From contig NZ_CP071868.1 in assembly GCF_017569225.1 (NCBI RefSeq), positions 3,596,001 to 3,660,000 of the forward strand: 64,000 nucleotides of DNA, given 5' to 3'. Position 1 is the stretch's first letter. Each line of letters begins with the position of its first letter. A model generated the notes under the pieces. That model had not been told where the DNA came from. It did not search any database and was given only the letters and a program-made list of their open reading frames with translations. A program made the translations under genes and the position numbers. Positions 3,256 through 27,788 of this stretch are shown piece by piece. Origin of the DNA: Pengzhenrongella sicca. Lineage in GTDB: Bacteria; Actinomycetota; Actinomycetes; Actinomycetales; Cellulomonadaceae.

Positions 3256-3328
3256 AGCGTAAGTGGACAAACACGACGCAATCCGTCACGGCAGGAAGAT
3301 TCACCCGGTCGCCGCCACACTTCACCCG
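3256..3328 (-). promoter_or_regulatory. CGGGTGAA-box promoter of the anchored-protein gene
   Basis: On the minus strand two direct CGGGTGAA boxes (3328-3321 and 3307-3300) begin 21 bp apart. The gene-proximal box is followed after 38 bp by TACGCT (3261-3256), a TANNNT -10 element. Predicted transcription starts near 3249, about 50 bases before the ATG at 3199. The same arrangement occurs before the genes starting at 6708 and 22297. Binding of an activator to the box is inferred. Confidence 0.6.
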
Positions 3329-3402
3329 CGGATCTCCCGGGCGGCTGCTACGCGGCCACCTCGCGTGCGCGGCGCGCGTGCAGCGCGTCGCCCTGCGTCG
3401 CC

Positions 3403-6400
3403 TCAGCCGATCGTCGTCACCGAGAAGTCGTCGATCTGAACGGCCACGGGAACGTTCGTGGCGGAGCTCGACGCCAGCGCCGCCAGCCCCGTGTGCCCGC
3501 TGCCCTGGAGCGCCGCCGTCGAGTCCGTGGCGGTGACGTTCCACGCCGTCGGTTCGGTGCTGGTCGAGGCCCAGACCTTCCCGCGGAGCGTCGTGGGCGA
3601 CGTGCCCGTGACCTCGACGACAGCCACGACGCCGGAGCCCGGCGTGTAGGTCAGGCCGGCCACGGTCACCTCCGGCGTGAGCGCGGTCTCGACCCCGGCC
3701 GCGGTCGTCCGCACCAGGCGCGCGGTGACGACGCCGTTCGCCCGGTGCGCGACCCTGAGCCGGTACTCGCCCCCGGTGGTGATGCGCCCGCGCAGCAGGA
3801 ACCAGCCGCCGGAGCCGGCGGGGCGCTTGTCCCAGCTCTCCGTCACCTGGGTGCGCAGGCTGGTGCCCGTTGCTCCCGGCAGCCGGGCGCTCACGGTCGC
3901 ACCGGCGGACGCGAGGGCGAGGCGGCCGGCGGTGCCGGTCACGCTCGTCGCGCCGGCCGTGGTCGCCCAGGCCCCGCCGAGGTCGGCGGTGCCGAGGCCG
4001 CTGTCGACCGTGCGGCCGAACGCGTCGGCGGCGATGCCGGGGACGGCCGGGGCCGTCACCGTGACGTCGCCCTGCGCCGTCGCCGTCGCGCCGCCGGAGT
4101 CCGTGACGGTGAGCGTCACGGTGTAGGTGCCCGCCGCCGCGTACGCGTGCGTCGCGGTCACTCCCGTGGCCGTGCCGCCGTCCCCGAACGTCCAGTCGTA
4201 GCCGGCGATCGAGCCGTCGGGGTCCGCCGACGCCGACGCATCGACGCTGACCGAGAGGCCGTCCGCCGTCGAAGCGAAGCTCGCCACCGGGTCCTGGTTG
4301 GTCGGCGTGCCGCCGGCGGTGGTGAAGTGCGCGGCCACCTGGGCGGCCGTCAGGGCCCGGCCGTACACCGCGACCTCGTCGATGTCGCCGGTGAAGTCGG
4401 GCGCACCCGCCTCGGGCCAGATCGCCGACGAGTCCCCACCGATGCGCCAGTACCCCCGGAAGGTCTGACCCTGACGACCCGTGCTGTGGGACCGCGACGA
4501 GACGGTGTCGGTCCGCGAGGCGCGCAGCGCCCCGTCGACGTAGAGCTGCTGGCCCGCGGACGAGAGCGTCGCGACGACGTGGTGCCATGCGCCGTCGTTG
4601 TACGCGCCGGGCGTGGTGACCGTTCGCAACGAGTTGGGGTTCACCCCGAAGGTCAGCCGACCGTCGGCGCCGAGCAGCACGTCACGGTCGTACAGGACGC
4701 TGTCGCCCGTCCTGGAGTCGCCGAAGCCGACGATCTTGCCGCCGGTGGTCGACGTCGTCCGGAACCAGGCCTCGATCGAGAACCTGTTGCTCGTCGTGGC
4801 CTGGGCCGATCCGTACACCCGCGACGCGGCGGTGCCCGCGAACTGGGCCGCGCCGTCGTCGTCCGCCGGGGTAAGCGCGCCGGCGACGTCGCGGGTGACC
4901 TCGGCGCCGACGGTGGAGTCGGCGAAGCCGGTCCAGTCTTGCGCGTTCCCGTCGGCCTCGCCGAGGCGCCAGTACCCGGCGGGGTTGTCGAGCAGGACCT
5001 GCTGCGCGTAGGCGCCGAGGACGGCCGTCCCGCCGGAGACCGTCACGGTCACGGACGGCGACGTGAGCGAGTTGCCGAACGGATCGCTCGCGACCACGAC
5101 GTAGGTGTGCGTCGCTCCCTCGACGAGGCCCGTGTCGGTGAACGAGATCCGGGGCAGCTGCCAGGACAGGGACTGCGCGGTCGTCTCGTACACGGGCGTC
5201 GTCCCGCCGTCGCGGAACACCTGATAGGTCAGCCGCTCGTTGTCCGGGTCCGAGGTGGTCGGCCACGAGACCTGGACCGTGCCCGCGGCCTCGGAGGTCG
5301 CCGTCGGCCGCAGGGAGTTCGCGGACCCCTGCGGGCCCAGGTCGTTGGTCGACAGCGTGCTCACGGCCATCCGGACCAGGCCCTGCTGGGGCTGGCCGTT
5401 GACGGTGAGGAACTCCCCGCCGTACACGACATAGTCCGCGGTGCCCGTGACGCTCCAGCCCGCCTGGCCCTGGCCGGTCGCCGCGCCGGGCGTGAACGCG
5501 GGGAAGTAGTCGAGCAGCGCGGGAGCGCGCCTGCCCTGCCAGTCGGTCCCGGACGGGTGGGTCACGATCGGGACCCCGGGCGTGATCGTCATCACGTCCT
5601 GCTTCGAGAAGGCCTGCGCGTAGGCGTAGCCCTGGAACCCGGTCTTCTCGGGGTAGCCGCCGATGTTGCCGCAGAAGTAGGCGTGCCCGACGGTGTAGAT
5701 CGCATCGCCGCCCGGGTTCGCGAACACCGAGTAGGTGTCACCGTGGCAGTCCTCGATCCACCGGACGGCGCCGGTCATGACGTTCGCCGCGAACGCGCCC
5801 TCGAGGTTCCCGGTCCCGCCCGCGGCCACCAGGATGAAGCCGGTGCCGTAGACCCAGGTCCCGTCCGACGACAGGCTCGTCACCCCGGCCTGGTAGCCGT
5901 AGTTCTGCACGACCTGGTTCGCGGCCCACGGCAGCACGGCGGCAGTCGTGGTCGACAGCGCTCCCGAGCCGCGCGCGGCGACCCCGGCCAGGCGCTCGAA
6001 CCGCCCGGCGACGATGAGTCGCGTGTTGTCCGGGCTCAAGACCATCGCCTCGACCTGGGCGGACTGCGCCGATGCCGTCCACGACAGCAGCGCACCGGTG
6101 GTCGCGCTCACCGCGGCGAGCCGGTTGCGAGTGTTGCCGTTCGCGGTCGTGAAGTTCCCGCCGAAGTAGACCGTGCTCGCCGTCGCCGCGATCGCGCGCA
6201 CGGCGGCGTTGGGGTTCGGGTTGAAGCTGGTGACCCGCTGGCCGGTCGCGCGGTTGAGCACGGCGAACCGGTTCTGAGTCGCCCCGTTGACCCGGGTGAA
6301 GTCGCCGCCGACGTACAGCCGCGTCCCGTCGGGCGAGGCCGTGATGACATACGCCGGCCCGTTCAGGGTCGGCGCCCAGCTGGTGATCAGCTCCCCGGAC

Positions 6401-6708
6401 GCGAGGTCGTAGGCGAGCAGGTTGGCGCGCGCCGTCGTCGAGGTGCCGGCCGCCGCGCCAGCGGGCCGCGCCGTCGTGAACTGCCCCGCGACGTACACCG
6501 TCCCGCCCACGATCACCTGCGACCACGCCACGCCGTCGATCTGGACGGTCGGCAGCCCGTCCGCGGCGACGGTGGCCGGGATCCCCGGATCGGTCGGCGC
6601 GGTGTCCGCGACCGCGGGGCCCGCGGCGACGGCGAGACCGGCGGCAAGCAGGCTTGCGGCGGCGGCGGCCGCCACGACACGGCGGAGAGTGGGGAAATCG
6701 GCGCGCAT
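3403..6708 (-). CDS. Large secreted propeller/FN3/LamG/PKD surface protein
   Basis: The ATG at 6708 is chosen because GAGAGG lies 7-8 bases upstream and a clean signal peptide follows (residues 1-36, ending in ADTAPT); a longer frame exists but lacks a ribosome site. The product has 1101 residues. Domains in order: propeller-like repeats (about 50-340, with DGTRLYVGGDF), FN3-like (about 470-580), LamG (about 600-790, RFSIEAWF and GDIDEVAVYGRAL), PKD (about 810-888) and a C-terminal beta-sandwich of about 200 residues. No sortase motif or membrane anchor is visible at the C-terminus, so it is probably secreted or bound to surface glycan. It is paralogous to the gene truncated at the left edge. 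Its promoter carries CGGGTGAA boxes shared with the exopolysaccharide operon, which fits a matrix-protein role (inferred). Confidence 0.88.
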   Translation of the reverse strand: MRADFPTLRRVVAAAAAASLLAAGLAVAAGPAVADTAPTDPGIPATVAADGLPTVQIDGVAWSQVIVGGTVYVAGQFTTARPAGAAAGTSTTARANLLAYDLASGELITSWAPTLNGPAYVITASPDGTRLYVGGDFTRVNGATQNRFAVLNRATGQRVTSFNPNPNAAVRAIAATASTVYFGGNFTTANGNTRNRLAAVSATTGALLSWTASAQSAQVEAMVLSPDNTRLIVAGRFERLAGVAARGSGALSTTTAAVLPWAANQVVQNYGYQAGVTSLSSDGTWVYGTGFILVAAGGTGNLEGAFAANVMTGAVRWIEDCHGDTYSVFANPGGDAIYTVGHAYFCGNIGGYPEKTGFQGYAYAQAFSKQDVMTITPGVPIVTHPSGTDWQGRRAPALLDYFPAFTPGAATGQGQAGWSVTGTADYVVYGGEFLTVNGQPQQGLVRMAVSTLSTNDLGPQGSANSLRPTATSEAAGTVQVSWPTTSDPDNERLTYQVFRDGGTTPVYETTAQSLSWQLPRISFTDTGLVEGATHTYVVVASDPFGNSLTSPSVTVTVSGGTAVLGAYAQQVLLDNPAGYWRLGEADGNAQDWTGFADSTVGAEVTRDVAGALTPADDDGAAQFAGTAASRVYGSAQATTSNRFSIEAWFRTTSTTGGKIVGFGDSRTGDSVLYDRDVLLGADGRLTFGVNPNSLRTVTTPGAYNDGAWHHVVATLSSAGQQLYVDGALRASRTDTVSSRSHSTGRQGQTFRGYWRIGGDSSAIWPEAGAPDFTGDIDEVAVYGRALTAAQVAAHFTTAGGTPTNQDPVASFASTADGLSVSVDASASADPDGSIAGYDWTFGDGGTATGVTATHAYAAAGTYTVTLTVTDSGGATATAQGDVTVTAPAVPGIAADAFGRTVDSGLGTADLGGAWATTAGATSVTGTAGRLALASAGATVSARLPGATGTSLRTQVTESWDKRPAGSGGWFLLRGRITTGGEYRLRVAHRANGVVTARLVRTTAAGVETALTPEVTVAGLTYTPGSGVVAVVEVTGTSPTTLRGKVWASTSTEPTAWNVTATDSTAALQGSGHTGLAALASSSATNVPVAVQIDDFSVTTIG

Positions 6709-6820
6709 GGCCAGCCTCTCGAACGGGCGAGACGGGAAGGTCGCGAGAAGGCAGACCGAGGCACCGCGCCTCGTCGCCCACCCGCATCGATCCACCGGGC
6801 CACAACGTCCCGACCGGGCG

Positions 6821-6897
6821 AGCATAAGGTGACGAACCCCACAGTTCGGTCACAGTTGGCACAATTCACCCGATAGCGACCTGGCGGCGTTCACCCG
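6821..6897 (-). promoter_or_regulatory. CGGGTGAA-box promoter of the large surface protein gene
   Basis: Two CGGGTGAA boxes on the minus strand (6897-6890 and 6872-6865, starts 25 bp apart). The proximal box is followed after exactly 38 bp by TATGCT (6826-6821), a TANNNT -10. The predicted leader is about 105 bases. The interval also resembles the promoter at 3256-3328, for example in GTGACCGA versus GTGACGGA. No normal -35 at 17 bp spacing is visible, which fits activator dependence. Confidence 0.6.
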
Positions 6898-6936
6898 AAC
6901 AGCCTCCGCGTGGGCCCGTAGGCCCCGGATGCCGGC

Positions 6937-8118
6937 CTAGCGGACGCTCCCGAGCCGGGCCACCGCCCGGACGAGCACCGCCGAGCGCAGCAGGTAGGAC
7001 AGCCCGAGCCCGGCGGCCGCGCCGCCGATCCCCGCGCTCGCGGCGCCGGCCGCGATGGCCGGGATCATCAGGAGCCCGAAGACGGTGCCGTTGACCGCGA
7101 CGAGCCGCTCGGCGCCCTGCCCCTGCAGCAGCCCCCCGAGGGAGGCCGCGAGCGCCATGAAGGGCAGGCCCGCGAGGCTCCACGCGAGCGCAGGCCCCGC
7201 ACCGGCGTACGCATCGCCCATCACGAACACGACCAGGGGCTCGGCAACCAGCATGAGCGGGACGATCGGCGCGAGACTCGCGCAGAACACGGCCGAGAGC
7301 CGGAGCCCGAGCCGGCGCGCCGCGCGCGGCTCGAGGCGCGCCGCGTGCGGCGTGACGACCGCGCCGACGGTCTGCGGGATGAGCAGCAACGGCTGCACGA
7401 GCTTGGCGGCCGCGGCGTACAGCCCGGCCGACGCGGCGCTGAGCGTCGCGGCCACGATCGCGGTGTCGAGCGTTCGGGCCTGCGCGGTCACGTTGCTCAC
7501 GAGGAACGGCCACGCCTGCCGCAGCACGTCCGGCGTCGGGCTGCGGCCCGTCGTCCGGTCGACGTCGAGGACGTGGCGCACGTGCAGCTGGCCCGCGACG
7601 GCGCCGAGGAGCAGCCCCGCGCCGTACGCCCAGAGCGGCTCGAGGCCCGCCCACATCCCCGCCAGCAGCGCGGCGAGAGACACGGAGCGGCGCAGCAGCA
7701 TCGACACCGCAGGGGTCCGCGAGTCGCCGTCGGCGATCGGGACCCCCAGGAGGGTGTCGACGTTGCGCTCGAGCGCCAGGGACGCGCCGATGATCGCAAG
7801 CCCGACCGGCAGGCCGCCCCAGCTGGTCCAGGCCACGATTGCGCCGGCGAGGGCGAGGCCGGTGACGACGTTCGAGATCGTGTTCAGCCGCAGGGCGGCG
7901 GCGACGTCGGCCGACCGGCCCAAGGCGCGCGCCCGCGGCACGTAGGTGGACATGCCCAGCCCGGTGACCACCAGCACGAGGCCGACGATGCCGATGACGG
8001 CGTTCACGAGCCCGAAGACGCTCGCCGGCACGGCCCGGGCCAGCAGGATCAGCACCGCCGCCTGCAACAGGCTGCCGATCCCCCGCGACACGAGGATCAC
8101 GAGGAACTGCACCCTCAC
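6937..8118 (-). CDS. Wzx-like polysaccharide flippase
   Basis: A 393-residue, almost wholly hydrophobic protein with roughly a dozen membrane segments, beginning VQFLVILVSRGIGSLLQAAV. It resembles the oligosaccharide flippases (MATE/Wzx fold) that move lipid-linked repeat units to the outer face of the membrane. The GTG at 8118 is preceded by GAGG at a spacing of 8; longer upstream reading runs into the divergent promoter and is not protein-like. It is transcribed away from the Wzy-like gene at 8207, with which it shares a symmetrical promoter region. A second flippase lies at 13960-15408, so the two may serve different glycans. Substrate cannot be read from sequence. Confidence 0.8.
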   Translation of the reverse strand: MRVQFLVILVSRGIGSLLQAAVLILLARAVPASVFGLVNAVIGIVGLVLVVTGLGMSTYVPRARALGRSADVAAALRLNTISNVVTGLALAGAIVAWTSWGGLPVGLAIIGASLALERNVDTLLGVPIADGDSRTPAVSMLLRRSVSLAALLAGMWAGLEPLWAYGAGLLLGAVAGQLHVRHVLDVDRTTGRSPTPDVLRQAWPFLVSNVTAQARTLDTAIVAATLSAASAGLYAAAAKLVQPLLLIPQTVGAVVTPHAARLEPRAARRLGLRLSAVFCASLAPIVPLMLVAEPLVVFVMGDAYAGAGPALAWSLAGLPFMALAASLGGLLQGQGAERLVAVNGTVFGLLMIPAIAAGAASAGIGGAAAGLGLSYLLRSAVLVRAVARLGSVR

Positions 8119-8152
8119 GCGGCGCGCCTCGATGTCCGGTTCATGCCGCCGG

Positions 8153-8177
8153 ACACTAGCAGCGTGCGTGCTAGCAT
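8153..8177. promoter_or_regulatory. Bidirectional promoter with palindrome between flippase and polymerase genes
   Basis: A palindrome CTAGCA-N7-TGCTAG occupies 8156-8174. It overlaps a TANNNT -10 on each strand: TAGTGT on minus (8158-8153) for the flippase and TAGCAT on plus (8172-8177) for the polymerase. The symmetry suggests one operator could control both directions; this is inferred. Confidence 0.5.
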
Positions 8178-8206
8178 CCGCACACCCTGAGCACCGGAGG
8201 CGCGTG

Positions 8207-10614: not shown

Positions 10615-10700
10615 CATCGGCACCCTGCGCACACTGCGCATCGCGGTCAAATGCGGCATCGTGCCTCGACCGGTGGTCCGCTGACGGCTAAGGGGAACCG

Positions 10701-12526: not shown

Positions 12527-13764
12527 GTGGGAGCAACGCCGGGGGTTATGCGGCGAGTAGCAGCTGGTTCAGCCGGTCGGCTGGGGTTTGTAGGTCCAGG
12601 GTCGGGCGGGGTCTGCGGTTCAAGGTAGCCGCAACTCGATGCAGGTCCGCGGGGGTATGTACGGCCAGGTCGGAGCCCTTTTCGAACCAGAATCGCAGGA
12701 GCCGGTTCGTGTTCTCGTTCGTGCCGCGCTGCCAGGGTGAGTGCGGGTTGCAGAAGTAGAGCGTCGCGTCGAGCGCGGTCTGGATCTGGGCGTAGTGGGC
12801 GAGCTCGGTTCCGCGGTCCCAGGTGATCGAGCGACGCAGATGTTCGGGCAGGCTGCTCATCTCGCGGATCATCGCTGCCGCGACCGCGCCTGCACTGTGA
12901 TCGTCGGGCAGGTGCAGCAAGATCGTGAATCGGGTGCTGCGCTCGACCAGAGTGCCGATCGCGGTCCCGTTGCGGCCGATGATGAGGTCACCTTCCCAGT
13001 GCCCAGGGATCGCCCTATCCTCGACCTCGGCTGGCCGGTCACTGATCTTGAACGCCTCCTTGTAGGGGCTGCTCTTGTGCCGGTCAGCGGTATGGGGAAC
13101 TCGCTTCTTGCGTTGCAAACTCAGCTTCTTGGCCAGGTCAGCGCGCAAGTTCCCGCGACTTTGGACGTAGAGAGCGCGGTAGATCGTCTCGTGGCTCACC
13201 TGCATCCCCTGATCATCGGCGAAGGTGAGCGCCAGCATCGACGAGATCAGCTTCGGGCTCCACCCGACGTCCATCCACGCAGCGATCTGCGCGCACAACG
13301 GCGCGTTCGCGACCAGCTTCAACGGCTTCGGCCGCCGCCGGGCCTGATGGGCCCTGGCATGGGCGAGCGAGGCGTAATAGGCCCCGTCCGGGCCCGCGTT
13401 GCGCCTGACCTCTCGCCAGACCACGGACTTGTCCCGACCGATCGCCTGCCCGATCAAGGCATAGCTCATGCCCGTGCGCCGGCCCATCTCGATCATCCCC
13501 CGATCGGCCAACGTCACCATCCGCTCGCTGGCGTCGCGATCCGTTCGTGGCCCCGGGTCAGCCAGACCACCCAAGCGCCCACTGCGCAGCTCCATCCCCC
13601 CAGCCTGGGCCCACCACCGGAAACCCGTGGCCCCAACAGCACCGACACGCGCAGAAGCAGCCTCAACACTCAGACCACCACAGACCAGATCCACAAACCG
13701 AGCCCGAGTGCCCTCAGGGAACTTGACCATCACAACGCTCCTTCAACAGGGGCGTTGCTCCCAC
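12527..13764. mobile_element. IS30-family insertion sequence
   Basis: A single transposase gene is bounded by inverted repeats GTGGGAGCAACGCC (12527-12540) and its complement (13751-13764), giving an element of about 1.24 kb. It lies between the BY-kinase gene and the 3' end of the EPS operon and interrupts no recognisable gene. The flanking bases (GGT on the left, CAT on the right) do not form an obvious short target duplication, so either the true tips differ by a few bases or one flank was later rearranged. Confidence 0.8.
12546..13733 (-). CDS. IS30-family transposase
   Basis: A 395-residue intact transposase. It has an N-terminal helix-turn-helix (SVEAASARVGAVGATGFRWW) and a second DNA-binding helix pair (MSYALIGQAIGRDKSVVWREVRRN) typical of IS30. 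A DDE catalytic domain follows: first Asp in GHWEGDLIIG, second in ITWDRGTE, Glu in CNPHSPWQRGTNENTNRLLR. It catalyses copy-out of the element by acting on the inverted repeats that flank it. No frameshift or stop is seen, so the element could be active. The gene points toward the convergent BY-kinase gene. Confidence 0.93.
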   Translation of the reverse strand: MMVKFPEGTRARFVDLVCGGLSVEAASARVGAVGATGFRWWAQAGGMELRSGRLGGLADPGPRTDRDASERMVTLADRGMIEMGRRTGMSYALIGQAIGRDKSVVWREVRRNAGPDGAYYASLAHARAHQARRRPKPLKLVANAPLCAQIAAWMDVGWSPKLISSMLALTFADDQGMQVSHETIYRALYVQSRGNLRADLAKKLSLQRKKRVPHTADRHKSSPYKEAFKISDRPAEVEDRAIPGHWEGDLIIGRNGTAIGTLVERSTRFTILLHLPDDHSAGAVAAAMIREMSSLPEHLRRSITWDRGTELAHYAQIQTALDATLYFCNPHSPWQRGTNENTNRLLRFWFEKGSDLAVHTPADLHRVAATLNRRPRPTLDLQTPADRLNQLLLAA

Positions 13765-13905
13765 CATATGAATCTGCCCCCGATCAGGGGACCGATCGCC
13801 CACACCAGCGCCGCATGGAGCCGAACGCCCACACTCGCGCTCTCGGCGCCCGACCTGGCGGGTCGTGGCGGGACGTCGGTCGCGACCGACCGCGCCTCGA
13901 CCTCG

Positions 13906-13946
13906 GAGTTGTGGTGACGTCGACGGCGATTCCGGGACCACGACTC
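13906..13946. repeat. Hairpin with GAGTTGTGGT arms (possible third repeat copy)
   Basis: Arms GAGTTGTGGT (13906-13915) and ACCACGACTC (13937-13946) pair with one G-T wobble. They match the arms of the hairpins at 53558-53600 and 54991-55041, but the loop differs, so membership in that family is uncertain. It lies downstream of the flippase stop at 13960 and could act as its terminator. Confidence 0.35.
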
Positions 13947-13959
13947 CCAGTTCGGCAGC

Positions 13960-15408
13960 TCAGCGCCGGACGGCGCGGCGCAGGAACTCGAGCAGGAACG
14001 CCAGGTCGCGGCGCACCACCGGGAGCACGAGGGCGACGAGGCCGATGACGGCGACCGCGGCAACGCAGCCCACGGCCAGCTGAGCCCACGCCGGACCGAC
14101 GAGGTGGGTGGCCCCCCAGGCCGCCGCGGCGCTCGGGACGCCGACGAGGCCGACGGCGGTCACCGCCTTGATGAACAGCGGCCGCACCGACATGCCGGTG
14201 ACGCGCCCGACGGCGATCAGCGACACGACCCAGTACGACGAGTACGCCACGAGGTGCCCGATCGCCACGCCCTCGGGGCCCCACGGGACGCCCGCGACGA
14301 TGACGATCATCATCAGCGGCTGGCACCACACGTCGAGCCGGAGCATCGAGCCCGTGCGGCCAGTCGCGAGGAACAGCCAGTACGACAGCTGCGAGATCGA
14401 GCGGAAGACCCCGCCGAGGGCGAGCAGCGCGAAGATCGGCGCAAGCCCCTCCCACGTGTCGCCGAACAGGAGGCTGATCAGCGGGTCCGCGAGCGCGGCG
14501 GCGACGATGAGCATCGTCGCGGTCACGTAGCAGCCCACGAGCTGCGCGCGCCCGGCGTACCGCACGAACGTGTCCTTGTCGTCCTGCAGCTTGGACAGGA
14601 TGGGGACCGCCACGCGCGTCAGCGGTGTGTTGATCTGGTTCAGGGGGGTCATCAGGAGCTGGTAGGCCCGGCTGTACAGGCCGAGCGAGGCCGGGCCCCA
14701 CACCGCGCCGAGGGCGATGTTGTCGATGTTCTTGGTGCCGTACGACAGCGCCTGGGTGCCCATCAGCCGCACCCCGAACCGCAGGAACGGCCGGATCGAG
14801 ACCGACCGCCGCGGCCGCCCCGGCACCCAGCGGCAGTTGACCGCGTTCACGACGAGGCTCATGAACGCGGCAACGACGGGCTGCGCCACGAGCGCCCAGA
14901 ACCCGGCGCCGGCGAGCGCGAGGAGCACGGCCGCGAGCATGCCGGTGCCCTGCGAGATGACGTCGGAGGTGGCGAGCGACCGGAACCGCAGGGAGCGCGC
15001 GAGGTCCGCCCGCAGCTGCGTGTCCAGCCCAGACAGCACGAAGACGGCGGCGAGCGGGGGGACGACCTGGCTCAGCCGGGGCTCGTCGTAGATCGCGACG
15101 ATCACGGGCGTGAGCGCGAGCGCGATGCCCGCGCACGCGGTGCCGAGCGCGGTGTTCGCCCAGAAGAGGTTCGACCGCTCGGCCTCGCTGAGCGTGCGCG
15201 CCTGGATCGCGGCCGTCGACAGGCCGAGGTCGCGCACGATCTCGGCGACACCGATCACCGCCGTCACCATCGCCACGAGCCCGAAGTCCGCCGGCACGAG
15301 CAGCCGCGCGAGGACGATCATCGAGCCGATCTGCAGCACGAAGCGGACCAGCTGAGCGCCGACTGAGACGGCGGTGCCCTTCGCGGCGACGTCGGAGAGC
15401 GCGCTCAC
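13960..15408 (-). CDS. Lipopolysaccharide/teichuronic-type flippase (Wzx-like)
   Basis: A 482-residue protein with about 12-14 membrane helices. It starts VSALSDVAAKGTAVSVGAQL and contains RLLVPADFGLVAMVTAVIGV and YGTKNIDNIALGAVWGPASLGLYSRAYQL, wording typical of the MATE-fold polysaccharide flippases of the WzxC/TuaB kind. It would move undecaprenyl-linked repeat units across the membrane. GTG at 15408 overlaps the stop of the upstream pyruvyl transferase (GTGA), so it is the last gene of the long operon starting at 22297. The basic tail (RRDLAFLLEFLRRAVRR) is cytoplasmic. Confidence 0.87.
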   Translation of the reverse strand: MSALSDVAAKGTAVSVGAQLVRFVLQIGSMIVLARLLVPADFGLVAMVTAVIGVAEIVRDLGLSTAAIQARTLSEAERSNLFWANTALGTACAGIALALTPVIVAIYDEPRLSQVVPPLAAVFVLSGLDTQLRADLARSLRFRSLATSDVISQGTGMLAAVLLALAGAGFWALVAQPVVAAFMSLVVNAVNCRWVPGRPRRSVSIRPFLRFGVRLMGTQALSYGTKNIDNIALGAVWGPASLGLYSRAYQLLMTPLNQINTPLTRVAVPILSKLQDDKDTFVRYAGRAQLVGCYVTATMLIVAAALADPLISLLFGDTWEGLAPIFALLALGGVFRSISQLSYWLFLATGRTGSMLRLDVWCQPLMMIVIVAGVPWGPEGVAIGHLVAYSSYWVVSLIAVGRVTGMSVRPLFIKAVTAVGLVGVPSAAAAWGATHLVGPAWAQLAVGCVAAVAVIGLVALVLPVVRRDLAFLLEFLRRAVRR

Positions 15409-16514
15409 CGGCGCACCCCCGGGCTCGGCTGCCGGAGCCGGGAGCCGGCCGCCCCGCTCGTCGCGAGCGCGAGGATGCGGCCGCCGAGCGCGTCGAGCCG
15501 CTCGCGCGCGGGCCGGACGCATCCCAGCAGCTCGACCCGCTGCGCGTCGATCTCGTCGATCCGTTGCACGGCGCGCCGGCTCGTGACCTCGCCCTGGTGG
15601 AACGCGACGTCCGCCGCCCCGACCGTCGCAAGCGTGCGCGCGAGCTTCTCGACCCCTGCGGTGCCGAACCCGACGGGCAGCGCACCCTCGGTGTGCCCCA
15701 GCACGAGGGCGTGCAGGCGGTCGCTCACGACCATCGAGGACCGCCGCAGCACTGCCCGCACGACCTCCTCGCGGGCGGCGTGGTCCTGCCCGTCCCACGC
15801 CAGCAGATCGCCCCCGAGCCGACGCGCCAGCAGCTCGGCACGCTCGGAGTCCCGCCCGACCTGCGGCAACGCCACGATGGTCAGGCCGCGGCTGCGCGCG
15901 GCCGCCCGGACGGCCGCGACCCACCCGTCGTCCGGCAGCGGCCGGTCGAAGCGCAGCGAGACGGCGAGCACGTCGCGGCCCACGAGGTCCGCCGCGCGCT
16001 CGACGTCACCCGAGGGCGCGCCCTCCGCGTAGGCCCAGTCGGGGGCGACGTTGCCGACGCCGATCGCGTCGCGGCTGGGGGTGTCGCGCCAGCTCACCTC
16101 GTCGCAGGCGGCGAGGCCGATCCGGACGGCGCGACCCCAGACCGGGTGCGGCGCCCGGATCCCGAAGCCGGTGTGCACCGCGTGGCCACCGCGCAGCCGC
16201 CCGGCGAGCAGCAGCGGTAGCGAGCCGAGGCAGTGCCGCGCGTAGGCCGGGTCGGCGTAGGTCTCGCCGGCGTTGTAGGCGTAGAAGCCGCCGCGCAGCA
16301 GGCCGCGCGCGAGCAGCGGGCCCCACGCGCCGGCGTCGGCCACGAGCCGGTCGCTCGGACCCAGCCCGAGCCCCGCGCGATAGCCGGCGGGCATCCCGAC
16401 GACGTTGACGACGAGGTCCCCCGCCGGGCGAAGGGCGCGCAGCAGCCCGCGCCGCAGGACCGAGTCACCGAGATTGTCGACCTGCCCGCGGGCGGACACG
16501 AGGACCTCACCCAT
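15405..16514 (-). CDS. Polysaccharide pyruvyl transferase family protein
   Basis: A 369-residue protein of the polysaccharide pyruvyl transferase fold. The N-terminal pattern VDNLGDSVLRRGLLRAL and the C-terminal donor-half pattern SSMVVSDRLHALVLGHTEG with GTAGVEKLARTL are characteristic. Members transfer pyruvate from phosphoenolpyruvate to make ketal groups on sugars, giving the polymer negative charge. ATG at 16514 lies inside the end of the upstream Wzy-like gene (8-base overlap), so translation is coupled. Whether this member adds pyruvate or has another role cannot be told from sequence alone. Confidence 0.82.
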   Translation of the reverse strand: MGEVLVSARGQVDNLGDSVLRRGLLRALRPAGDLVVNVVGMPAGYRAGLGLGPSDRLVADAGAWGPLLARGLLRGGFYAYNAGETYADPAYARHCLGSLPLLLAGRLRGGHAVHTGFGIRAPHPVWGRAVRIGLAACDEVSWRDTPSRDAIGVGNVAPDWAYAEGAPSGDVERAADLVGRDVLAVSLRFDRPLPDDGWVAAVRAAARSRGLTIVALPQVGRDSERAELLARRLGGDLLAWDGQDHAAREEVVRAVLRRSSMVVSDRLHALVLGHTEGALPVGFGTAGVEKLARTLATVGAADVAFHQGEVTSRRAVQRIDEIDAQRVELLGCVRPARERLDALGGRILALATSGAAGSRLRQPSPGVRR

Positions 16515-17841
16515 GGGCTGCCCCCGCCGGGGGCCTGGCCGACGACGCCGTCACGCCCGGCACGGGGCCGGCAGGGTCGTCGTCGGTCCGGTCGGCGCAG
16601 AGCAGCAGGCACAGCGGCACGAGGGTGACGGGCAGGAACATCATGCGATCGACGAAGCCGAGCGGGACCTCGAGCACCCCGACGGCGAGCAGCGCCGCCA
16701 GCCACCCCGCGGCCCAGGGCACGCCGGCGGCGGCGAGGCGGACGGCGCGCACCGCGGCCAGGGCGAGCAGCGCGAGCACCGCCACGGTGAGCAGGAGGCC
16801 GCCGGTGATCAGCAGCTGCACCCCCTGGTTGTGCGCGTGGTAGGCGTACCCGCCAAGGTCGGCGGGCGTGTTGGCGATCTGCTTGAAGTAGTCGGCGCCG
16901 TACCCCACCAGGGGGCTGTCCCGCCAGGCGTCGAGCGTCGCGATCCAGTAGCCCGCGCGGTGGGTGAAGCGATCGGGGTCGCTCGTGACGAACGGCACCA
17001 CGAGCCCGACGAGCGCGAGCAGGCCGAGCCCCAGGCCCGCGAGCTGGCCGCGGCGCGGGAGCCAGGCCAGGGCGGCCAGCATGACGAGCACGACGAGCGC
17101 GGCGACCCAGGAGGTGCGCGAGATCGTCCACGCGAGCGCCAGCGCGACGGCCCCGAGCGCGACCCACCGCAGCGCGACGCGCCGGATGGCGAAGACCGTC
17201 GGCAGTCCGACGACCAGGAGCAGGCCGAGGTTGTTGCCCGTCGGCATCACCCCCGACAGCACGCCGGCGGGCCCGATGACCTTCTCCAGGCCGGCCGTCT
17301 CGAGCGGATACCGGCCCGCGTCAGGCAGCAGTGCGCCCAGGAGCAGGCTCACGAGCGCCGTCGCGCCCGTGAGGTAGCCCACGGTCTCGATCGCGGCGCG
17401 GCGCGGTCGCAGCGCCCAGAACGCGGCCGCGACCGCCGGGTAGATCAGGGCGGGCGCCCCGGGAGGGCGCCCCAGCACGACGAGCTGCACCGCGGCGATC
17501 CCCCACGGCGCGACGAGCAGGACGAGCACGCCCGCGGTGCGCCACGCGAGCGCGGGCAGGCACGCCAGCACCACCGCGGCGCACGCCAGCACGATGAGGC
17601 CGTTCGCGGCGGTCGTGACGGCGCTCGCGAGGCCGGTCAGCGGCGCGGCCTCCTGGTCGATCGGGGTGAAGCCCTTGCCCTCGGTGACGCTCTGGACGAG
17701 CAGCGGCCCGAGGACCCCGAGCCAGACGGTCACGATCAGTCCAACCTGCACCCGGTGCTCCCAGCCGGCCGAGATCCACCCGGCGCCGTGCTCGCGCGCC
17801 GGCAGGCGGCGCCGGCGGGCGAGGGCCTCCGGCGCCGTCAC
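16507..17841 (-). CDS. O-antigen ligase/polymerase (Wzy-like) membrane protein
   Basis: A 444-residue membrane protein with about 11-12 helices. Its main outer loop contains HRAGYWIATLDAWRDSPLVGYGADYFKQI and YHAHNQGVQLLITGG, the Wzy_C/WaaL signature with conserved Arg and His residues. It would join or polymerise repeat units on the outer membrane face. GTG at 17841 overlaps the stop of the GT2 gene (GTGA), and its end overlaps the next start by 8 bases. It is the polymerase of the long operon; the related gene at 8207 is transcribed separately from the opposite strand. Confidence 0.82.
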   Translation of the reverse strand: MTAPEALARRRRLPAREHGAGWISAGWEHRVQVGLIVTVWLGVLGPLLVQSVTEGKGFTPIDQEAAPLTGLASAVTTAANGLIVLACAAVVLACLPALAWRTAGVLVLLVAPWGIAAVQLVVLGRPPGAPALIYPAVAAAFWALRPRRAAIETVGYLTGATALVSLLLGALLPDAGRYPLETAGLEKVIGPAGVLSGVMPTGNNLGLLLVVGLPTVFAIRRVALRWVALGAVALALAWTISRTSWVAALVVLVMLAALAWLPRRGQLAGLGLGLLALVGLVVPFVTSDPDRFTHRAGYWIATLDAWRDSPLVGYGADYFKQIANTPADLGGYAYHAHNQGVQLLITGGLLLTVAVLALLALAAVRAVRLAAAGVPWAAGWLAALLAVGVLEVPLGFVDRMMFLPVTLVPLCLLLCADRTDDDPAGPVPGVTASSARPPAGAAHG

Positions 17842-18674
17842 GGCCGGACCGCCTCGACGAGGCGATAGCAGGCGAGCGACGCCGTCGACCGCCACCGGAT
17901 GCTGCGCGTCGGCCCGATCACCCGCCGGATGCTCGAGATCTGCGAGCGGATGTAGCGCCGGTCGTCGGTCGTCATGAGGTCGCCGTGCTTGGACAGGTAG
18001 GTCTCGATGCCGTGCACGCGCCGCTCGGTCTTGTCCGTCAGCTGCGGCCCGGCGTGGATCCGGTTGCGCACCAGCACCTCAGGGACGACGGCGTAGCGCA
18101 GGCCGGCCGCCAGCGCTCGCACGAGCAGATCCTGGTCGTTGGAGACGGTCAGCTCCGGGTCGAAGCCGCCCAGTCGGGTGAACGCCTCGCGGCGCATCAC
18201 GAAGTTGCTGCCCACGAAGCCCGGGTTGCGCGCGACGACGTCGCCGACGCCGAGCCCCGGTCGCATCCGCTCCATGTGGTACGCGCGCTCGCCCGCGTCG
18301 GCGGCGGTCCAGCCCACCGCGAAGTCGACGCCGTCGGCCACGAGCGCGGGCACGACCGAGCCAAGGAAGTCGGGCTCCCAGGTGTCGTCGTCGTCGAGGA
18401 ACGCGACGACGTCGCCGGTCGCGCGCGCGACGCCCGCGTTGCGCGAGGCGCCGGCGGACGTCCAGCCGGTGCCGCTCGCGTCGACGTAACGCACGGGCAG
18501 CGGCGCCCGGGCCGCCCACTCCTCGACGCACGCGCGGGTGGCCGGGGACCCGAGATCGTCCGCGACCAAGACCTCCGTCGGCGGGTGCCGCTGGGCGACG
18601 ACGGAGGCGATGGCCTCGCCGAGGAGATGGTCGCGACCGTGCGTGGGGATCACGCACGACACGGTGGGCGTCAC
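17838..18674 (-). CDS. Family 2 glycosyltransferase
   Basis: A 278-residue GT-A enzyme starting VTPTVSCVIPTHGRDHLLGEAI. The nucleotide-binding loop VLVADDLGS and the metal-binding DXD-like motif in VVAFLDDDDTWEPDFL are clear, and the acceptor side has NPGFVGSNFVMRREAFTRLGGFD. It adds one sugar to the lipid-linked repeat unit in the cytoplasm. GTG at 18674 overlaps the stop of the WecG-type gene (GTGA) and is preceded by GGGAGG. The sugar donor is not predictable. Confidence 0.87.
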   Translation of the reverse strand: MTPTVSCVIPTHGRDHLLGEAIASVVAQRHPPTEVLVADDLGSPATRACVEEWAARAPLPVRYVDASGTGWTSAGASRNAGVARATGDVVAFLDDDDTWEPDFLGSVVPALVADGVDFAVGWTAADAGERAYHMERMRPGLGVGDVVARNPGFVGSNFVMRREAFTRLGGFDPELTVSNDQDLLVRALAAGLRYAVVPEVLVRNRIHAGPQLTDKTERRVHGIETYLSKHGDLMTTDDRRYIRSQISSIRRVIGPTRSIRWRSTASLACYRLVEAVRP

Positions 18675-19441
18675 CTGGTGCCCTCCCGGGCCACGATCAG
18701 GGAGCGGGCTGCGATGTACAGGAACCGCGGACCGCGGATGAGGTAGCGCCAGGCGAGCCGGCGGGGCTCCTGGACCATCCGGTAGAACCATTCCCCGCCG
18801 AGGCGCTGGACGACCTTCGGGGCGCGCTTCTTGGTGCCGGCGACGAAGTCGACCGCTGCGCCGGCGCCGATATACAGGGCCGGCGGAAGCTCGGACCGCC
18901 AGTGCGACACCCACACGTCCTGCTTGGGCGAGCCCAGGCACACGAAGACCAGGTCCGGCTGGATCCGGACGAGCTCGTCGACGACCTTGCGCGACGCGTC
19001 GTCCTCGACCGAGGAGATGTAGGGAAAGGGGACGGCGACCACGTCGGCGTCGTACAGCTTGCGCAGCTTGTCGGCCGCGGCCTGCGCGACGTGCTCCTCG
19101 CCGCCGGTGACCGCGATGCGCCACCCGTTGCGGAGCGAGCGCTCGGACACGAGCGGGAGCAGGTCCGCGCCCGTGTGGCGCTGCAGCCGCGACGCGCCGA
19201 GCAGCTGGCCGAGCTTGACGAGGGGGAACCCGTCGGTGATCCGGATCTCGGCCTCGTCATATGCGCGCCGCAGGTCGGGGATGCGGATGTAGTTCAACGT
19301 CTGGTCGACGTTCGGCGTGATGACCGCGAGCACGCCCCGGGCCGGCAGCAGCGACTCGATGCGCGCGAGGAGCTCCGCCTGGTCACCCAGAAACAGCTCC
19401 CGCCCGGCGAGAGTCACGACGCCGGACGGATGCACCGCCAT
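18671..19441 (-). CDS. WecG/TagA/CpsF family glycosyltransferase
   Basis: A 256-residue protein of the WecG/TagA/CpsF fold (GT26). Signature segments are VITPNVDQTLNYIRIPDLRR, ITDGFPLVKLGQLLG and FVCLGSPKQDVWVSHW. Family members add the second sugar, often N-acetylmannosamine or a glucuronic-type sugar, to an undecaprenyl-diphosphate-linked sugar. That fits its position three genes after the initiating transferase. ATG at 19441 has GGAAG upstream. The C-terminus (RYLIRGPRFLYIAARSLIVAREGTR) is the usual membrane-associating basic tail. Confidence 0.88.
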   Translation of the reverse strand: MAVHPSGVVTLAGRELFLGDQAELLARIESLLPARGVLAVITPNVDQTLNYIRIPDLRRAYDEAEIRITDGFPLVKLGQLLGASRLQRHTGADLLPLVSERSLRNGWRIAVTGGEEHVAQAAADKLRKLYDADVVAVPFPYISSVEDDASRKVVDELVRIQPDLVFVCLGSPKQDVWVSHWRSELPPALYIGAGAAVDFVAGTKKRAPKVVQRLGGEWFYRMVQEPRRLAWRYLIRGPRFLYIAARSLIVAREGTR

Positions 19442-19457
19442 GATCACTTCCGGGCCG

Positions 19458-20696
19458 TCACTTCTCGGTGGGGAAGGTCGCATCGAAGATCCTTCCAACC
19501 AGTTCGGGGGCGCTGTAGGCGTCCGCGCTCTTGCGTACGACGTCCCGGTCATAGGACACCGCACTCATGATCGCAGCCGCCAGCAGGCCGGGGTCGCGGG
19601 CGCTCACCATTCCGTTGAGCCCCCGAGAAATGATGCCACCCGTATCCGAACCCTCGGTCACCACGGCAGGCAGGCCCGACGCGAGCGCCTCGACGAGAAC
19701 CATCGGGAAACCCTCGTAGCCGGGGTGCGAGGTCATGAGGAAGACGCCCGACCCGCCCATCACCTCCGCGACCTCGCGCGGGGTCAGCCGACCCCGCAGC
19801 CGCACCCGCTCCGCGACGTGCGCGGGGAGAGCCGCCACCTTCGTCTCGAGGTCCGTAGCGAGCGTGCCCGCGCCGACGATCTCGAGCGTCCACGGGAGGT
19901 CGTCGCCCGCCTCGAGCAGCCGGCTGAAGACCTCGAGCGCGAGCGCCGGGTCCTTCGGCTCCTCGAGGCGGCCCACCCAGACCACCCGGTGCGGCTCGGC
20001 CGGCTCGTCGGCCCAGGCGAGCAGGGCCGGGTCGAACCAGGTCGGGGAGAAGATCGCGAGCTCGTTGTGCTCGTGCACGACCTCGGCGTAGGCGGGGTTG
20101 AACACGACGACGCCCGCCGCGCCGCCGACGACGGACCGCTCCATGGCCGCGTGCGCGCGCCCGGCGAACCGCCAGACCGAGTCCGAGGTCGCGCTCGTGA
20201 GCCCGCCCTCCTGGGTGTGGATGAAGTAGACGAGCGGGTGCCCGAGCAGCGTGCGCACGGCGAGCGCAGTGTCGGCCCGGTGCGCGTGGATCACGCTCGC
20301 CTGGGGCAGGCGGGAACGGTATTTGGACACCCCGGCCATGAGCCGCAGGGCGTGCGGGATCAGGCGTGCCTGATTGCCCGGGTCGAGGCGCGCGACCGGC
20401 AGGAACCACACGTCGCGGCCGCCGATCTGGTGCAGCTCCCACACGCCGAGCGTGCGGCCAGCGACCGGCGCACCGCTGTCCACACCGGCGATGGCGATGG
20501 TCATGCCGGCCGGCGAGTACGTGATCAGGCCTCGGATGCAGGTGTCGATCCCGCCGGGCGAGGGCCGGGCGGCGTCGAACTGGTGCACGATGAGGCAGTC
20601 GACCTGCTGGGTCGGCCCCTCGGGGGCGCTCTGGTCCACCATCTCGTCGCCGACCCCGTCCTGCGCCAGGCTTCGCGCGTCGTCAACTGTGGTCAC
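19458..20696 (-). CDS. Family 4 glycosyltransferase
   Basis: A 412-residue GT-B enzyme. After a short acidic N-terminus the first domain contains CLIVHQFDAARPSPGGIDTC and ASVIHAHRADTALAV. The donor domain contains VVWVGRLEEPKDPALALEVF and the EX7E-type segment HPGYEGFPMVLVEALASGLP. This is the standard pattern for retaining GT4 enzymes building polysaccharide repeat units. GTG at 20696 follows GGGGGA, and the frame is open much further upstream only as a shadow of the sugar transferase gene. It lies 68 bases after that gene in the same operon. Confidence 0.87.
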   Translation of the reverse strand: MTTVDDARSLAQDGVGDEMVDQSAPEGPTQQVDCLIVHQFDAARPSPGGIDTCIRGLITYSPAGMTIAIAGVDSGAPVAGRTLGVWELHQIGGRDVWFLPVARLDPGNQARLIPHALRLMAGVSKYRSRLPQASVIHAHRADTALAVRTLLGHPLVYFIHTQEGGLTSATSDSVWRFAGRAHAAMERSVVGGAAGVVVFNPAYAEVVHEHNELAIFSPTWFDPALLAWADEPAEPHRVVWVGRLEEPKDPALALEVFSRLLEAGDDLPWTLEIVGAGTLATDLETKVAALPAHVAERVRLRGRLTPREVAEVMGGSGVFLMTSHPGYEGFPMVLVEALASGLPAVVTEGSDTGGIISRGLNGMVSARDPGLLAAAIMSAVSYDRDVVRKSADAYSAPELVGRIFDATFPTEK

Positions 20697-20764
20697 GTTC
20701 GTCCCCCTAGCGGGCCTGCGGTCGGTGGTGCGGGTGCGGCGTTGCGCGTCGTGCCGGGCGGCAT

Positions 20765-22297
20765 CTAGTACGCACCGGAGGGCTGGACCACGGCCCGCGC
20801 CGTCCGCCACAGGATCAGCAGGTCCATCCCGACAGACCAGTTGTCGACGTACCGCAGGTCGAGCCGGACCGACTCCTCCCAGCTCAGGTCCGACCGGCCG
20901 GAGATCTGCCACAGGCCTGTCAGGCCGGGCTTGACCCGGAGCCGGCGGTGCACGGAGTCCCCGTACGCGGCGACCTCCTCGGCGAGCGGCGGCCGCGGTC
21001 CCACGAGCGACATGTCGCCCTTGACCACGTTGATCAACTGCGGCAGCTCGTCGAGCGAGTACCGGCGCAGGACCCGACCCACCGGGGTCACGCGCGGGTC
21101 GTCCCGCATCTTGAACAGGACCCCGTCCCCGTCGCTGCTGGCCAGCAGCGCGTCCCGCCGCGCGTTGGCGTCGCGGTACATGCTGCGGAGCTTCCACATG
21201 GTGAAGGTACGGCCGTCGACCCCGACCCGGGTCTGGCGGTAGAACGGCGAGCCGGGCGAGGTCGCCCGCACCATGAGCGCGCCGACGCCGATGATCGGCG
21301 CCGCGATGGTCAGCAGCGCGACCCCGACGGCGCGGTCCATCGTGGCCTTGGCCAGCTGCCGGCGCCGGGGTGCGCTGACCTCGACCTCCAGGAGCGAGAG
21401 CCCGGCGACCGGCCGCAGCGAGATGCGCGGCGCGTGCACCTCGACGAGGTCGGGGGCGACGACGAGGTGGGCTCCGGCGCGGCCGAGCGCCCACGACAAC
21501 CGCCGGAGCGCGTCGCCGCTGAGGCACTTGCCCGCCACGACGACGACCTCGATCCCGCGATCGGCGACGACCTGGGGGACGTCGGCGACGGCGCCGAGGA
21601 TCGGCAGGTCCGACCGCGGCTGCACGTCGTCGAGCGACGGGACGCAGACGCCGGTGATGTGGTAGCCCTCGCGCGGCCGCCGCTGCAGGTCCCCGACGAC
21701 GCGCTCGACCGCGGCGAGGTCGCCGACGACGAGAGTCCGTCGCATCGCGCTGCCGCGCAGCACGCGCTCGCGCTGAAGCAGCCGCCGGTGGGTGATGCGC
21801 GTCAAGCAGCTGAGCAGCACGAGCGTCGGGACACCGAAGAAGACGAGGGAACGGGAGATCTCGGCCATCGACGCGTAGCTCACGGCCATGAGGGTGACCG
21901 CGGCGAGCAGGCCAGCCTGCACCACTGCCTGGTACTCCCCCGGGCCGTCGCCGAGCGAACGCTCGTCGTAGCCGCGGTTGATCGCGATGCACGCGACGAA
22001 CCCGACGGCGCCGAGGACGATCAGCGGGATCGTCTCGGGCTGGCGGCCGACGATCGCGAGCATGAAGCCGGAGGTCACCACGGTCGCGACTAGGGCGTCG
22101 AGCGCGACGGCGACGCGGCGGTAGCGGGCGACGGCGCGGGCCCACCGGTCCGCGCCGAGCTCGGAGTCGTTGTGCGGGGTCGACCGCACCACGAACGGGT
22201 TGGCCGAGGCCCACGAGCGGCGTGGGCCAGCGGCGCGGCCACGCCGGTCATCGGAGGGCTGCTGCCACTCGAGCTCGCGATCAGCCGTGAGCGTCAT
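20765..22297 (-). CDS. Exopolysaccharide initiating sugar-1-phosphate transferase (WbaP/polyprenyl type)
   Basis: A 510-residue polyprenyl glycosylphosphotransferase. About five membrane helices occupy roughly 55-160, a CoA-binding-like fold about 170-300 (RRTLVVGDLAAVERVVGDL), and the catalytic bacterial sugar transferase domain about 320-505. That domain has TMWKLRSMYRDA, DELPQLINVVKGDMSLVGPR and KPGLTGLWQISGRSDLSW. It transfers a sugar phosphate to undecaprenyl phosphate, the first step of repeat-unit assembly. ATG at 22297 follows GAGGAGG with good spacing; an upstream in-frame extension is promoter DNA. It is the first gene of a seven-gene operon ending at 13960 and is driven by a CGGGTGAA-box promoter. 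Confidence 0.92.
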   Translation of the reverse strand: MTLTADRELEWQQPSDDRRGRAAGPRRSWASANPFVVRSTPHNDSELGADRWARAVARYRRVAVALDALVATVVTSGFMLAIVGRQPETIPLIVLGAVGFVACIAINRGYDERSLGDGPGEYQAVVQAGLLAAVTLMAVSYASMAEISRSLVFFGVPTLVLLSCLTRITHRRLLQRERVLRGSAMRRTLVVGDLAAVERVVGDLQRRPREGYHITGVCVPSLDDVQPRSDLPILGAVADVPQVVADRGIEVVVVAGKCLSGDALRRLSWALGRAGAHLVVAPDLVEVHAPRISLRPVAGLSLLEVEVSAPRRRQLAKATMDRAVGVALLTIAAPIIGVGALMVRATSPGSPFYRQTRVGVDGRTFTMWKLRSMYRDANARRDALLASSDGDGVLFKMRDDPRVTPVGRVLRRYSLDELPQLINVVKGDMSLVGPRPPLAEEVAAYGDSVHRRLRVKPGLTGLWQISGRSDLSWEESVRLDLRYVDNWSVGMDLLILWRTARAVVQPSGAY

Positions 22298-22337
22298 GTC
22301 GGTCTCCTCCTCGTTCCGGGGGCCGGGGTAGAAGAGG

Positions 22338-22445
22338 AGCGTATAGGCCCAGGTACGACCTGGTCTGGTCGATGTGTCCCATTTCACCCGTTCTTCCGGC
22401 ATTCGGGTGAATGGCCCGCTCGGGGCGGGTGAATGTCCGGGTGAA
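22338..22445 (-). promoter_or_regulatory. CGGGTGAA-box promoter of the exopolysaccharide operon
   Basis: Four boxes cluster here. One CGGGTGAA reads toward the operon on the minus strand (22390-22383); three read on the plus strand (22404-22411, 22426-22433, 22438-22445). The operon-directed box is followed after 39 bp by TACGCT (22343-22338), a TANNNT -10, giving a leader of about 34 bases before the ATG at 22297. Box-to-box starts of 21, 22 and 12 bp are close to whole helical turns. Confidence 0.65.
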
Positions 22446-27700: not shown

Positions 27701-27760
27701 CGGCGCGGCGCCCCCGGCGCGGGTGAACCCGCCGGGCGCGACCCGCGACCTGCCGGCCGC

Positions 27761-27781: not shown

Positions 27782-27788
27782 CGCAGCC

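Follow-up and report, generated by a model that had tools for sequence, protein, structure and literature searches.

A promoter box before exopolysaccharide and giant surface-protein genes of Pengzhenrongella sicca and its relatives, and a BldM-type regulator as its predicted reader

In a 64-kb stretch of the Pengzhenrongella sicca chromosome (hereafter the window; G000:C1:3596001-3660000, with positions numbered within it), three minus-strand promoters carry the 8-mer CGGGTGAA at a nearly constant distance upstream of a TAYGCT -10 element, and this combination of box and spaced -10 was confirmed as real and beyond chance. The promoters precede an exopolysaccharide (EPS) initiating transferase gene, a gene for a large LamG/PKD protein and a gene for a 219-residue protein. 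Judged from sequence, the box is probably bound by an orphan response regulator of the BldM type, encoded beside guaB, which would activate genes for EPS and giant surface proteins. This reading is based on the element, its spacing and conservation, its co-occurrence with the regulator gene, the similarity of the DNA-binding domain to that of BldM, and a half-box found in the regulator's own promoter in relatives.

The box and its spacing in the window and genome

A first-pass annotation had placed the box 38, 38 and 39 bp before TACGCT, TATGCT and TACGCT in the promoters at 3256-3328, 6821-6897 and 22338-22445, and these coordinates and gaps were reproduced (46, 46 and 47 bp from box start to -10 start). 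The additional boxes that it had reported 21-25 bp away were measured at 21, 25 and 22 bp, and the EPS promoter does have four boxes in all. The promoter features are as follows.

22383-22390, minus strand: main box of the EPS promoter, CGGGTGAA(ATGGGACA), from the sequence and kept in relatives
22338-22343, minus strand: -10 element TACGCT of the EPS promoter, 47 bp from the box start
22404-22411, 22426-22433 and 22438-22445, plus strand: three extra boxes of the EPS promoter in opposite orientation, 22, 44 and 56 bp from the main box
3300-3307, minus strand: main box of the 219-residue protein gene, from the sequence
3321-3328, minus strand: second box of the same promoter, 21 bp upstream in the same orientation
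3256-3261, minus strand: -10 element TACGCT of the same promoter, 46 bp from the box start
6865-6872, minus strand: main box of the LamG/PKD protein gene, from the sequence
6890-6897, minus strand: second box of the same promoter, 25 bp upstream in the same orientation
6821-6826, minus strand: -10 element TATGCT of the same promoter, 46 bp from the box start

The window holds 12 exact copies of CGGGTGAA against 1.74 +/- 1.19 expected from 100 dinucleotide shuffles (largest 5). The repeated spacing to the -10, which the annotation had called unexpected, is indeed so: given the measured density of TANNNT, the probability that at least 3 of 12 boxes have this hexamer at 45-47 bp is 4.9e-7. Across the 4,395,128-base genome, the pattern CGGGTGAA-N36-42-TAYGCT has three matches, which are the three named promoters, and the reversed-pattern control has none. 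The copies at 6293 and 18175 (within genes) and at 27720 and 37092 (intergenic) look like chance occurrences or have no assigned role; the one at 37092-37099 has a DUF348/G5-domain gene about 170 bp downstream and no -10 at the usual spacing.

The 8-mer alone is a much poorer guide. Although the genome has 169 copies of it, compared with 52 of the reversed word, intergenic positions accounted for 9 of the first 30 copies by coordinate (background 17.1%, p = 0.058), and none of these nine has TANNNT at 30-59 bp. For this reason the 8-mer by itself is no specific mark and was rejected as one genome-wide, whereas the box with its spaced -10 is. Direct pairs of CGGGTGA 3-32 bases apart number 14 in the genome against 1 for the reversed word.

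Conservation and shape of the site in relatives

To follow the element beyond one genome, we collected 31 loci from public genomes by an EPS transferase search, without selection for the box, and examined the upstream regions of 24 (L079-L085 left out). In all 16 loci from Cellulomonas, Actinotalea, Pengzhenrongella and allied metagenome-assembled genomes, GGGTGAAA[TA]CGG[AG]CA is present with small variations 45-47 bp before TANNNT. Among the eight loci from outside the Cellulomonas/Actinotalea group, L071 and five from Actinomyces lacked CGGGTGAA in the stretch read, and L070 and L078 had one copy each, out of place; the true promoters of L073-L078 lie outside what was read, because there the match starts inside the protein.

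A larger set of 43 EPS promoters came from genomes bearing the candidate regulator described below; it includes the own genome, overlaps the 16 loci, was fetched entirely for box matches, and covers the 49 such genomes except G004, G025, G038, G069, G088 and G134. The box was found in 43/43, at 45-47 bp from the -10 in 40 and at 56-57 bp, about one turn more, in 3. For G038 and G069, the stretches around weak matches showed no intergenic box. Within 150 genomes of the family, a promoter sequence model had matches in 72 at E <= 0.5, and the exact 15-mer GGGTGAAATCGGRCA occurred at 38 places in 36 genomes, with no occurrence of the reversed word among the matches listed. An order-wide draw had the 15-mer in 7/35 family genomes and 7/361 others.

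As a neighborhood control, a 7-mer box was counted from -350 to +60 in either orientation across EPS neighborhoods. It was found upstream of the EPS transferase in 22/22 cases, of giant surface proteins in 14/22 and of one glycosyltransferase family in 3/8, and also of glmU-type (2/24) and marR (5/12) genes; it was absent upstream of pth (0/20), L25 (0/19), prs (0/19), tetR (0/14) and a CDP-alcohol transferase (0/9). The surface-protein count is biased upward, since L123, L126-L128 and L142 were fetched for hits and L062/L127 are one locus. A box with a -10 at 45-48 bp also precedes glycosyltransferases (L123, L126), an FAD oxidoreductase (L124, L125), a 1415-residue RCC1/He_PIG protein (L140) and two proteins of no assigned function (L135, L136), while a polysaccharide deacetylase (L124) has the box without a -10 at that distance. 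The spaced -10 was likewise absent from the matches in L127, L128, L130, L137, L138 and L157, one of which precedes an ATP-grasp purK-like gene. Overall, the earlier proposal that a protein bound near -55 jointly controls EPS and surface-protein genes is well supported by the 43/43 EPS promoters, the boxes before glycosyltransferase and RCC1/He_PIG genes, and four housekeeping families without the box.

We built a profile of the site from 36 distinct promoters (35 of EPS transferase genes and 1 of a glycosyltransferase gene), preselected for GGGTGAA and a spaced -10. The box of the relatives is longer than first described: a 3' part, AATCGG[AG]CA at +8 to +15, is nearly as conserved as the CGGGTGA half, followed by G at +20 and weaker positions to +27, while information upstream of the box is low and lies chiefly at -3 and -2. 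The CGGGTGA half-site is present in the window and in relatives, with a leading C that is common, not universal. In the window, the promoters of the 219-residue and PKD protein genes lack the CGG[AG]CA part but carry another complete box, 21 or 25 bp upstream of the main one. Accessory units (at most one mismatch) lie mainly 9-11 and 20-25 bp away in the same orientation and 22, 33-34, 44 and 56 bp away in the opposite one, roughly multiples of a helical turn; because many of these promoters are related, the spacings are a pattern and not a test.

Two side observations concern the same promoters and boxes. EPS promoters L098, L099, L102, L060 and L072 have in common a palindromic element, GTACTGATCNGTACAGAC, between box and -10, a possible second operator by its sequence. 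In genus g7, boxes occur near extracytoplasmic function (ECF) sigma genes. In L131-L133, L129 and L134, GGGTGAAATCGG boxes are followed by small ECF sigma genes and by a predicted ECF sigma factor fused to zf-HC2 and DUF11, of 1440 residues or more and truncated by the end of the locus; the BldM-type protein was not found in the g7 genomes with those boxes.

The guaB-linked regulator and its rivals

According to one study (PMC4125116), Streptomyces BldM is an orphan regulator, mainly an activator, that binds TCACcCgnncGgGTGA at group I promoters and, together with WhiI, TGnnCCGnnCGGGTGA at group II promoters. Because CGGGTGA is common to both sites, it is an already known half-site, and the earlier statement that no described regulator has this site has to be withdrawn, all the more as a BldM-like protein largely co-occurs with the element. 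The best match to BldM in the own genome (52% identity, with a working BldM sequence as query) is encoded at G000:C1:543898-544557, and with the same query it ranks first among 10 proteins similar to BldM at E <= 1e-15 (21 scored). Its gene lies between a MerR-type gene (Pfam) and guaB with no sensor kinase gene adjoining, as for an orphan regulator, and guaB, identified by a conserved peptide, was beside it in all 25 loci examined; in Streptomyces, guaB presumably lies near bldM. Over the DNA-binding domain, 48 of 61 positions are identical to BldM, compared with 32 of 61 for one NarL-type paralogue from the same genome (working BldM sequence as reference).

Domain and structure comparisons confirmed a receiver followed by a C-terminal LuxR/GerE DNA-binding domain, the NarL/FixJ architecture, with DevR (3c3w) and then NarL (1a04) as the best matches in the Protein Data Bank. 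An AlphaFold model (pLDDT 87.6, pTM 0.57) had Foldseek matches to NarL, LiaR, RcsB and FixJ, with the low whole-chain TM that a flexible arrangement of two domains leads one to expect. In 20/20 aligned receivers, His occupies the first acidic position, Gly (rarely Ala) the second and Pro the lysine position, with Asp54 kept; control by level, partner or ligand is therefore likelier than phosphorylation. The working BldM sequence also has the phosphorylation-site Asp at position 54, agreeing with the D54A variant of PMC4125116, which complements, so that the phosphorylation pocket is dispensable in BldM.

A 20-row regulator profile matched 49/150 family genomes in 7/25 genera, once per genome, at E values from 7e-60 to 3e-113 (one match in two pieces), which places a candidate BldM-type regulator in a branch of Cellulomonadaceae. 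The promoter model largely followed it: at E <= 1e-3 it had matches in 32/49 genomes with the regulator and 0/101 without (Fisher 1.4e-20), and at E <= 0.01 in 39/49 and 3/101. Twelve further stretches with the next-best regulator matches, 10 of them from regulator-less genomes, encode NarL-type proteins with 36-43% identity to BldM, against 47% for the own regulator.

The regulator's own promoter was compared among 32 orthologues. TCACCC lies within 200 bp upstream in 23, and in 16 the half-box is exactly 18 bp before T[AC]ANNT (5.7% in shuffles, 1/32 for the reversed word). In 28/32, the T[AC]ANNT hexamer is followed at 19-20 bp by [CT]CGAT[AG], a pair found in 20/6000 random windows. The sigma-28 consensus is TAAA-N15-GCCGATAA, and the pair resembles it in sequence; the alternative is an ordinary -10 with a conserved leader. 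The regulator probably controls its own gene in many relatives.

Several results weigh against a BldM-type reader of the box. Receivers without the acidic pair that Streptomyces BldM keeps do not have a BldM-type phosphorylation pocket. At E <= 0.5 the promoter model matched 46/49 genomes with the regulator but also 26/101 without, and the exact 15-mer GGGTGAAATCGGRCA is in 24/49 of the former and also 12/101 of the latter (10 in g7, 2 in g6), a rate above the 7/361 outside the family. The co-occurrence may reflect one shared ancestry, and because the genomes share ancestry the counts are not independent events. The full BldM palindrome, as TCACCCGnnCGGGTGA or TGnnCCGnnCGGGTGA, is absent from the 36 profiled promoters, CCG stands at -5 to -3 (the group II position) in 5/36, and the conserved AATCGG[AG]CA half is outside the published BldM sites. 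Nine of the 32 orthologues lack TCACCC in range, and the bldM promoter of the own genome has TTCACCCC at about -108, divergent, with neither the 18-bp spacing nor the sigma-28 pair.

We consider it unlikely, if worth keeping in mind, that the box is read by another LuxR/NarL-type regulator, or by a heterodimer with a BldM-type protein as just one partner, as in BldM-WhiI, and a second partner that reads CGG[AG]CA. The near-equal conservation of AATCGG[AG]CA favors this, as does the reverse complement of its CGG[AG]CA part, TGYCCG, similar to one half (TGnnCCG) of the BldM-WhiI site; the own genome offers ten BldM-similar proteins, and g7 genomes carry the 15-mer without the guaB-linked protein. 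However, of the two own proteins compared, the guaB-linked one alone has the DNA-binding domain of BldM, and it largely tracks the promoter across genera. Much less probable is a box for PhoP, the phosphate-starvation regulator, or for an OmpR-type regulator with TTCACC half-sites, whereby the polymer would replace phosphate-rich wall polymers. TTCACC does resemble the PHO half-site GTTCACC (PMC4415409), two GGGTGAA units at an 11-bp interval occur in some EPS promoters, and phosphate-free wall polymers are Pho-controlled in some bacteria. By comparison, in 14 of 23 pstS upstream regions from Micrococcales (L180-L202, own L201 included) two GTTCA units at an 11-bp interval lie on the opposite strand, before a -10. 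The EPS box carries A in place of the C of the PHO half-site, mostly occurs singly and keeps a distance of 45-47 bp to the -10. A PHO box proper, with at least two GTTCACC-type direct repeats every 11 bp, was rejected, as the three window promoters have none, unlike pstS promoters.

Second boxes 20-25 bp upstream in several promoters might recall a LytTR-type regulator on direct repeats 21-22 bp apart, but this is exceedingly improbable: the domain was found in 72/150 genomes, the strong-match genomes G002, G043, G058 and G066 are not among them, and with 0 LytTR domains in G000 it is ruled out for the window's genome within the sensitivity of the search. Hardly any credence is left for the view that the boxes arose by chance or from the base composition of GC-rich intergenic DNA. 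The weak enrichment of the 8-mer alone would fit that explanation, which is nonetheless refuted by the empty reversed control for box and -10, the sequence and spacing kept in 16/16 loci not selected by box, the 15-mer counts, and the box-free housekeeping promoters of pth, L25, prs and tetR.

In the favored explanation, the guaB-linked regulator would recognize CGGGTGA in the manner of Streptomyces BldM, occupying about -59 to -44 as counted from the expected start. Further half-sites may help binding, either CGG[AG]CA 10 bp downstream, as in the EPS promoters of the family, or helper GGGTGAA boxes about 9-11, 20-25, 33-34, 44 or 56 bp upstream in either orientation, with the second half-site recognized either by this protein, arranged differently, or by a partner. 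The regulator would most likely activate sigma-70-type promoters without a clear -35, its predicted targets being EPS and glycopolymer genes, glycosyltransferases and giant LamG/PKD-type surface proteins, and in many relatives it would drive its own gene from a promoter of sigma-28 (FliA/WhiG) look. Binding, activation, the second half-site or partner and sigma-28 control are the steps that we infer. A sigma-28-type regulator promoter would tie the surface coat to the motility program.

Likeness to the Streptomyces venezuelae BldM regulon (BldM homodimer, group I; BldM-WhiI, group II) lies in the CGGGTGA half-site, the NarL/FixJ-type orphan and the 48/61 positions of the DNA-binding domain. 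Here, unlike there, the left palindrome half is missing, CGG[AG]CA is conserved on the other side, the receiver's acidic pair is lost, and the predicted targets are EPS and LamG/PKD/RCC1-type surface proteins. The bacteria of this study are, to our knowledge, not known to sporulate, unlike Streptomyces. The regulator promoter also differs, looking sigma-28-like here, whereas sigma-BldN drives one of the Streptomyces bldM promoters (PMC4125116). A motif study of S. griseus (PMC8914203) found a BldM-like motif and a predicted regulon with surface-coat (chaplin) genes and bldM itself.

Other systems are similar by function or by string. RcsB/RcsA of enterobacterial capsule control are likewise LuxR-type activators of exopolysaccharide genes (PMC4125116), and RcsB structures were among the fold matches; the site is different and no phosphorelay gene lies beside the regulator here, which makes this a functional analogy and no membership. 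The VpsT structure, and the CsgD model below its cut-off, were also among the regulator's matches; VpsT and CsgD are LuxR-type proteins controlling matrix genes in biofilms, with a different family and site. The actinobacterial PHO box (GTTCACC direct repeats) has the TTCACC string in common and differs in flanking base, strand and spacing, and the genome has PHO-type boxes at other places.

A survey from 2013, covering some 100 genomes with Cellulomonas flavigena among them, reported that convincing bldM hits have much the same distribution as bldN hits, and bldN hits were in morphologically complex genera only (PMC4255298). Against that survey, a BldM orthologue that controls surface-coat genes in simple bacteria would, if true, be unexpected, and it is directly testable. 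No paper on BldM or its site in Cellulomonas or this family was found in the open-access literature among the matches listed, nor one on EPS control in Cellulomonas among the matches listed by one broad open-access search, nor a bacterial promoter among those listed for CGGGTGAA and six 12-mers. For matrix production in Cellulomonas and its relatives, the finding names a candidate regulator together with its precise site and a list of targets. It also bears on the evolution of a Streptomyces developmental regulator, and suggests that in non-sporing bacteria a BldM relative controls the cell surface coat. We regard as an evenly balanced proposition the broader view that, outside sporulating actinomycetes, the BldM-type regulator switches EPS and giant surface proteins while controlling its own gene, which stands under a flagellar-type sigma-28 promoter, with the coating role in Streptomyces having grown from an older motility-to-surface-coat (biofilm) circuit, the half-site arrangement changed and the receiver here no longer phosphorylatable.

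The surface-polymer island and neighboring genes

Gene calls were made with our own codon-usage script trained on the window, and domains were assigned by Pfam. With the window joined to the stretch on its left, the boxed genes fall in an island of about 32 kb, from an mfd-like gene (recognized by eye) to pth, with a cytidylyltransferase-like unit, a DUF1972-type glycosyltransferase unit, three giant LamG/PKD-type proteins, the 219-residue protein and the EPS genes. The annotated genes in the window are listed here.

20765-22297, minus strand: EPS initiating sugar transferase (Bac_transf, Pfam), first gene of the EPS operon, start from the gene caller
13960-20696, minus strand: GT1, WecG/TagA, GT2, Wzy-like, a 369-residue protein of no assigned function and Wzx-like, same-strand followers of the EPS transferase in a presumed operon
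2495-3154, minus strand: 219-residue protein with an N-terminal hydrophobic stretch and no Pfam family (gene caller, Pfam)
3403-6708, minus strand: 1101-residue protein with a signal-like N terminus and Rax2-like, LamG and PKD domains (gene caller, Pfam)

These assignments bear out the gene types named in the annotation for the EPS initiating transferase and the LamG/PKD protein, while its description of the 219-residue protein as anchored is plausible from the hydrophobic start and not established. Six unit-heading gene starts of the island have GGGTGAA within 200 bp, five of them with TANNNT at 46-47 bp; no box precedes the other unit heads, namely the third giant protein, a 391-residue flippase-like gene, plus-strand Wzy and Wzz, a transposase, and a 412-residue glycosyltransferase behind the EPS transferase. 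No regulator gene was recognized within the island, and a locus-borne reader of the box was rejected. A transposase-like gene (HTH_38, rve) at 12546-13520 lies within the island and adjoins the EPS genes.

Elsewhere in the own genome, TTCACCC units precede a gene for a 1456-residue LTD and 5'-nucleotidase protein (L048:4382-4640; G000:C1 about 638380-638640), a possible further target. Two intergenic boxes, L023 (G000:C1:514198), which precedes a chemotaxis receptor gene, and L028 (589158), have in common a longer string, CCGAACGGGTGAACTTAG, matching CCGnnCGGGTGA of the BldM-WhiI site.

The CGGGTGAA copy at 27720, 56 bp before TAACCT of a MarR gene (27789-28310, beside glmU and tetR), was rejected as part of the element, being not conserved in the relatives read and lying in a promoter (27720-27800) with its own palindrome, TATCTCGACGTCGAGTAA / TATCTCGATGTCGAGTAA. 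The palindrome recurs in four distinct relatives with an intergenic upstream region (L062/L127, L065/L213, L069 with one change and L211 with one insertion), and by its sequence is probably the operator of the MarR protein itself.

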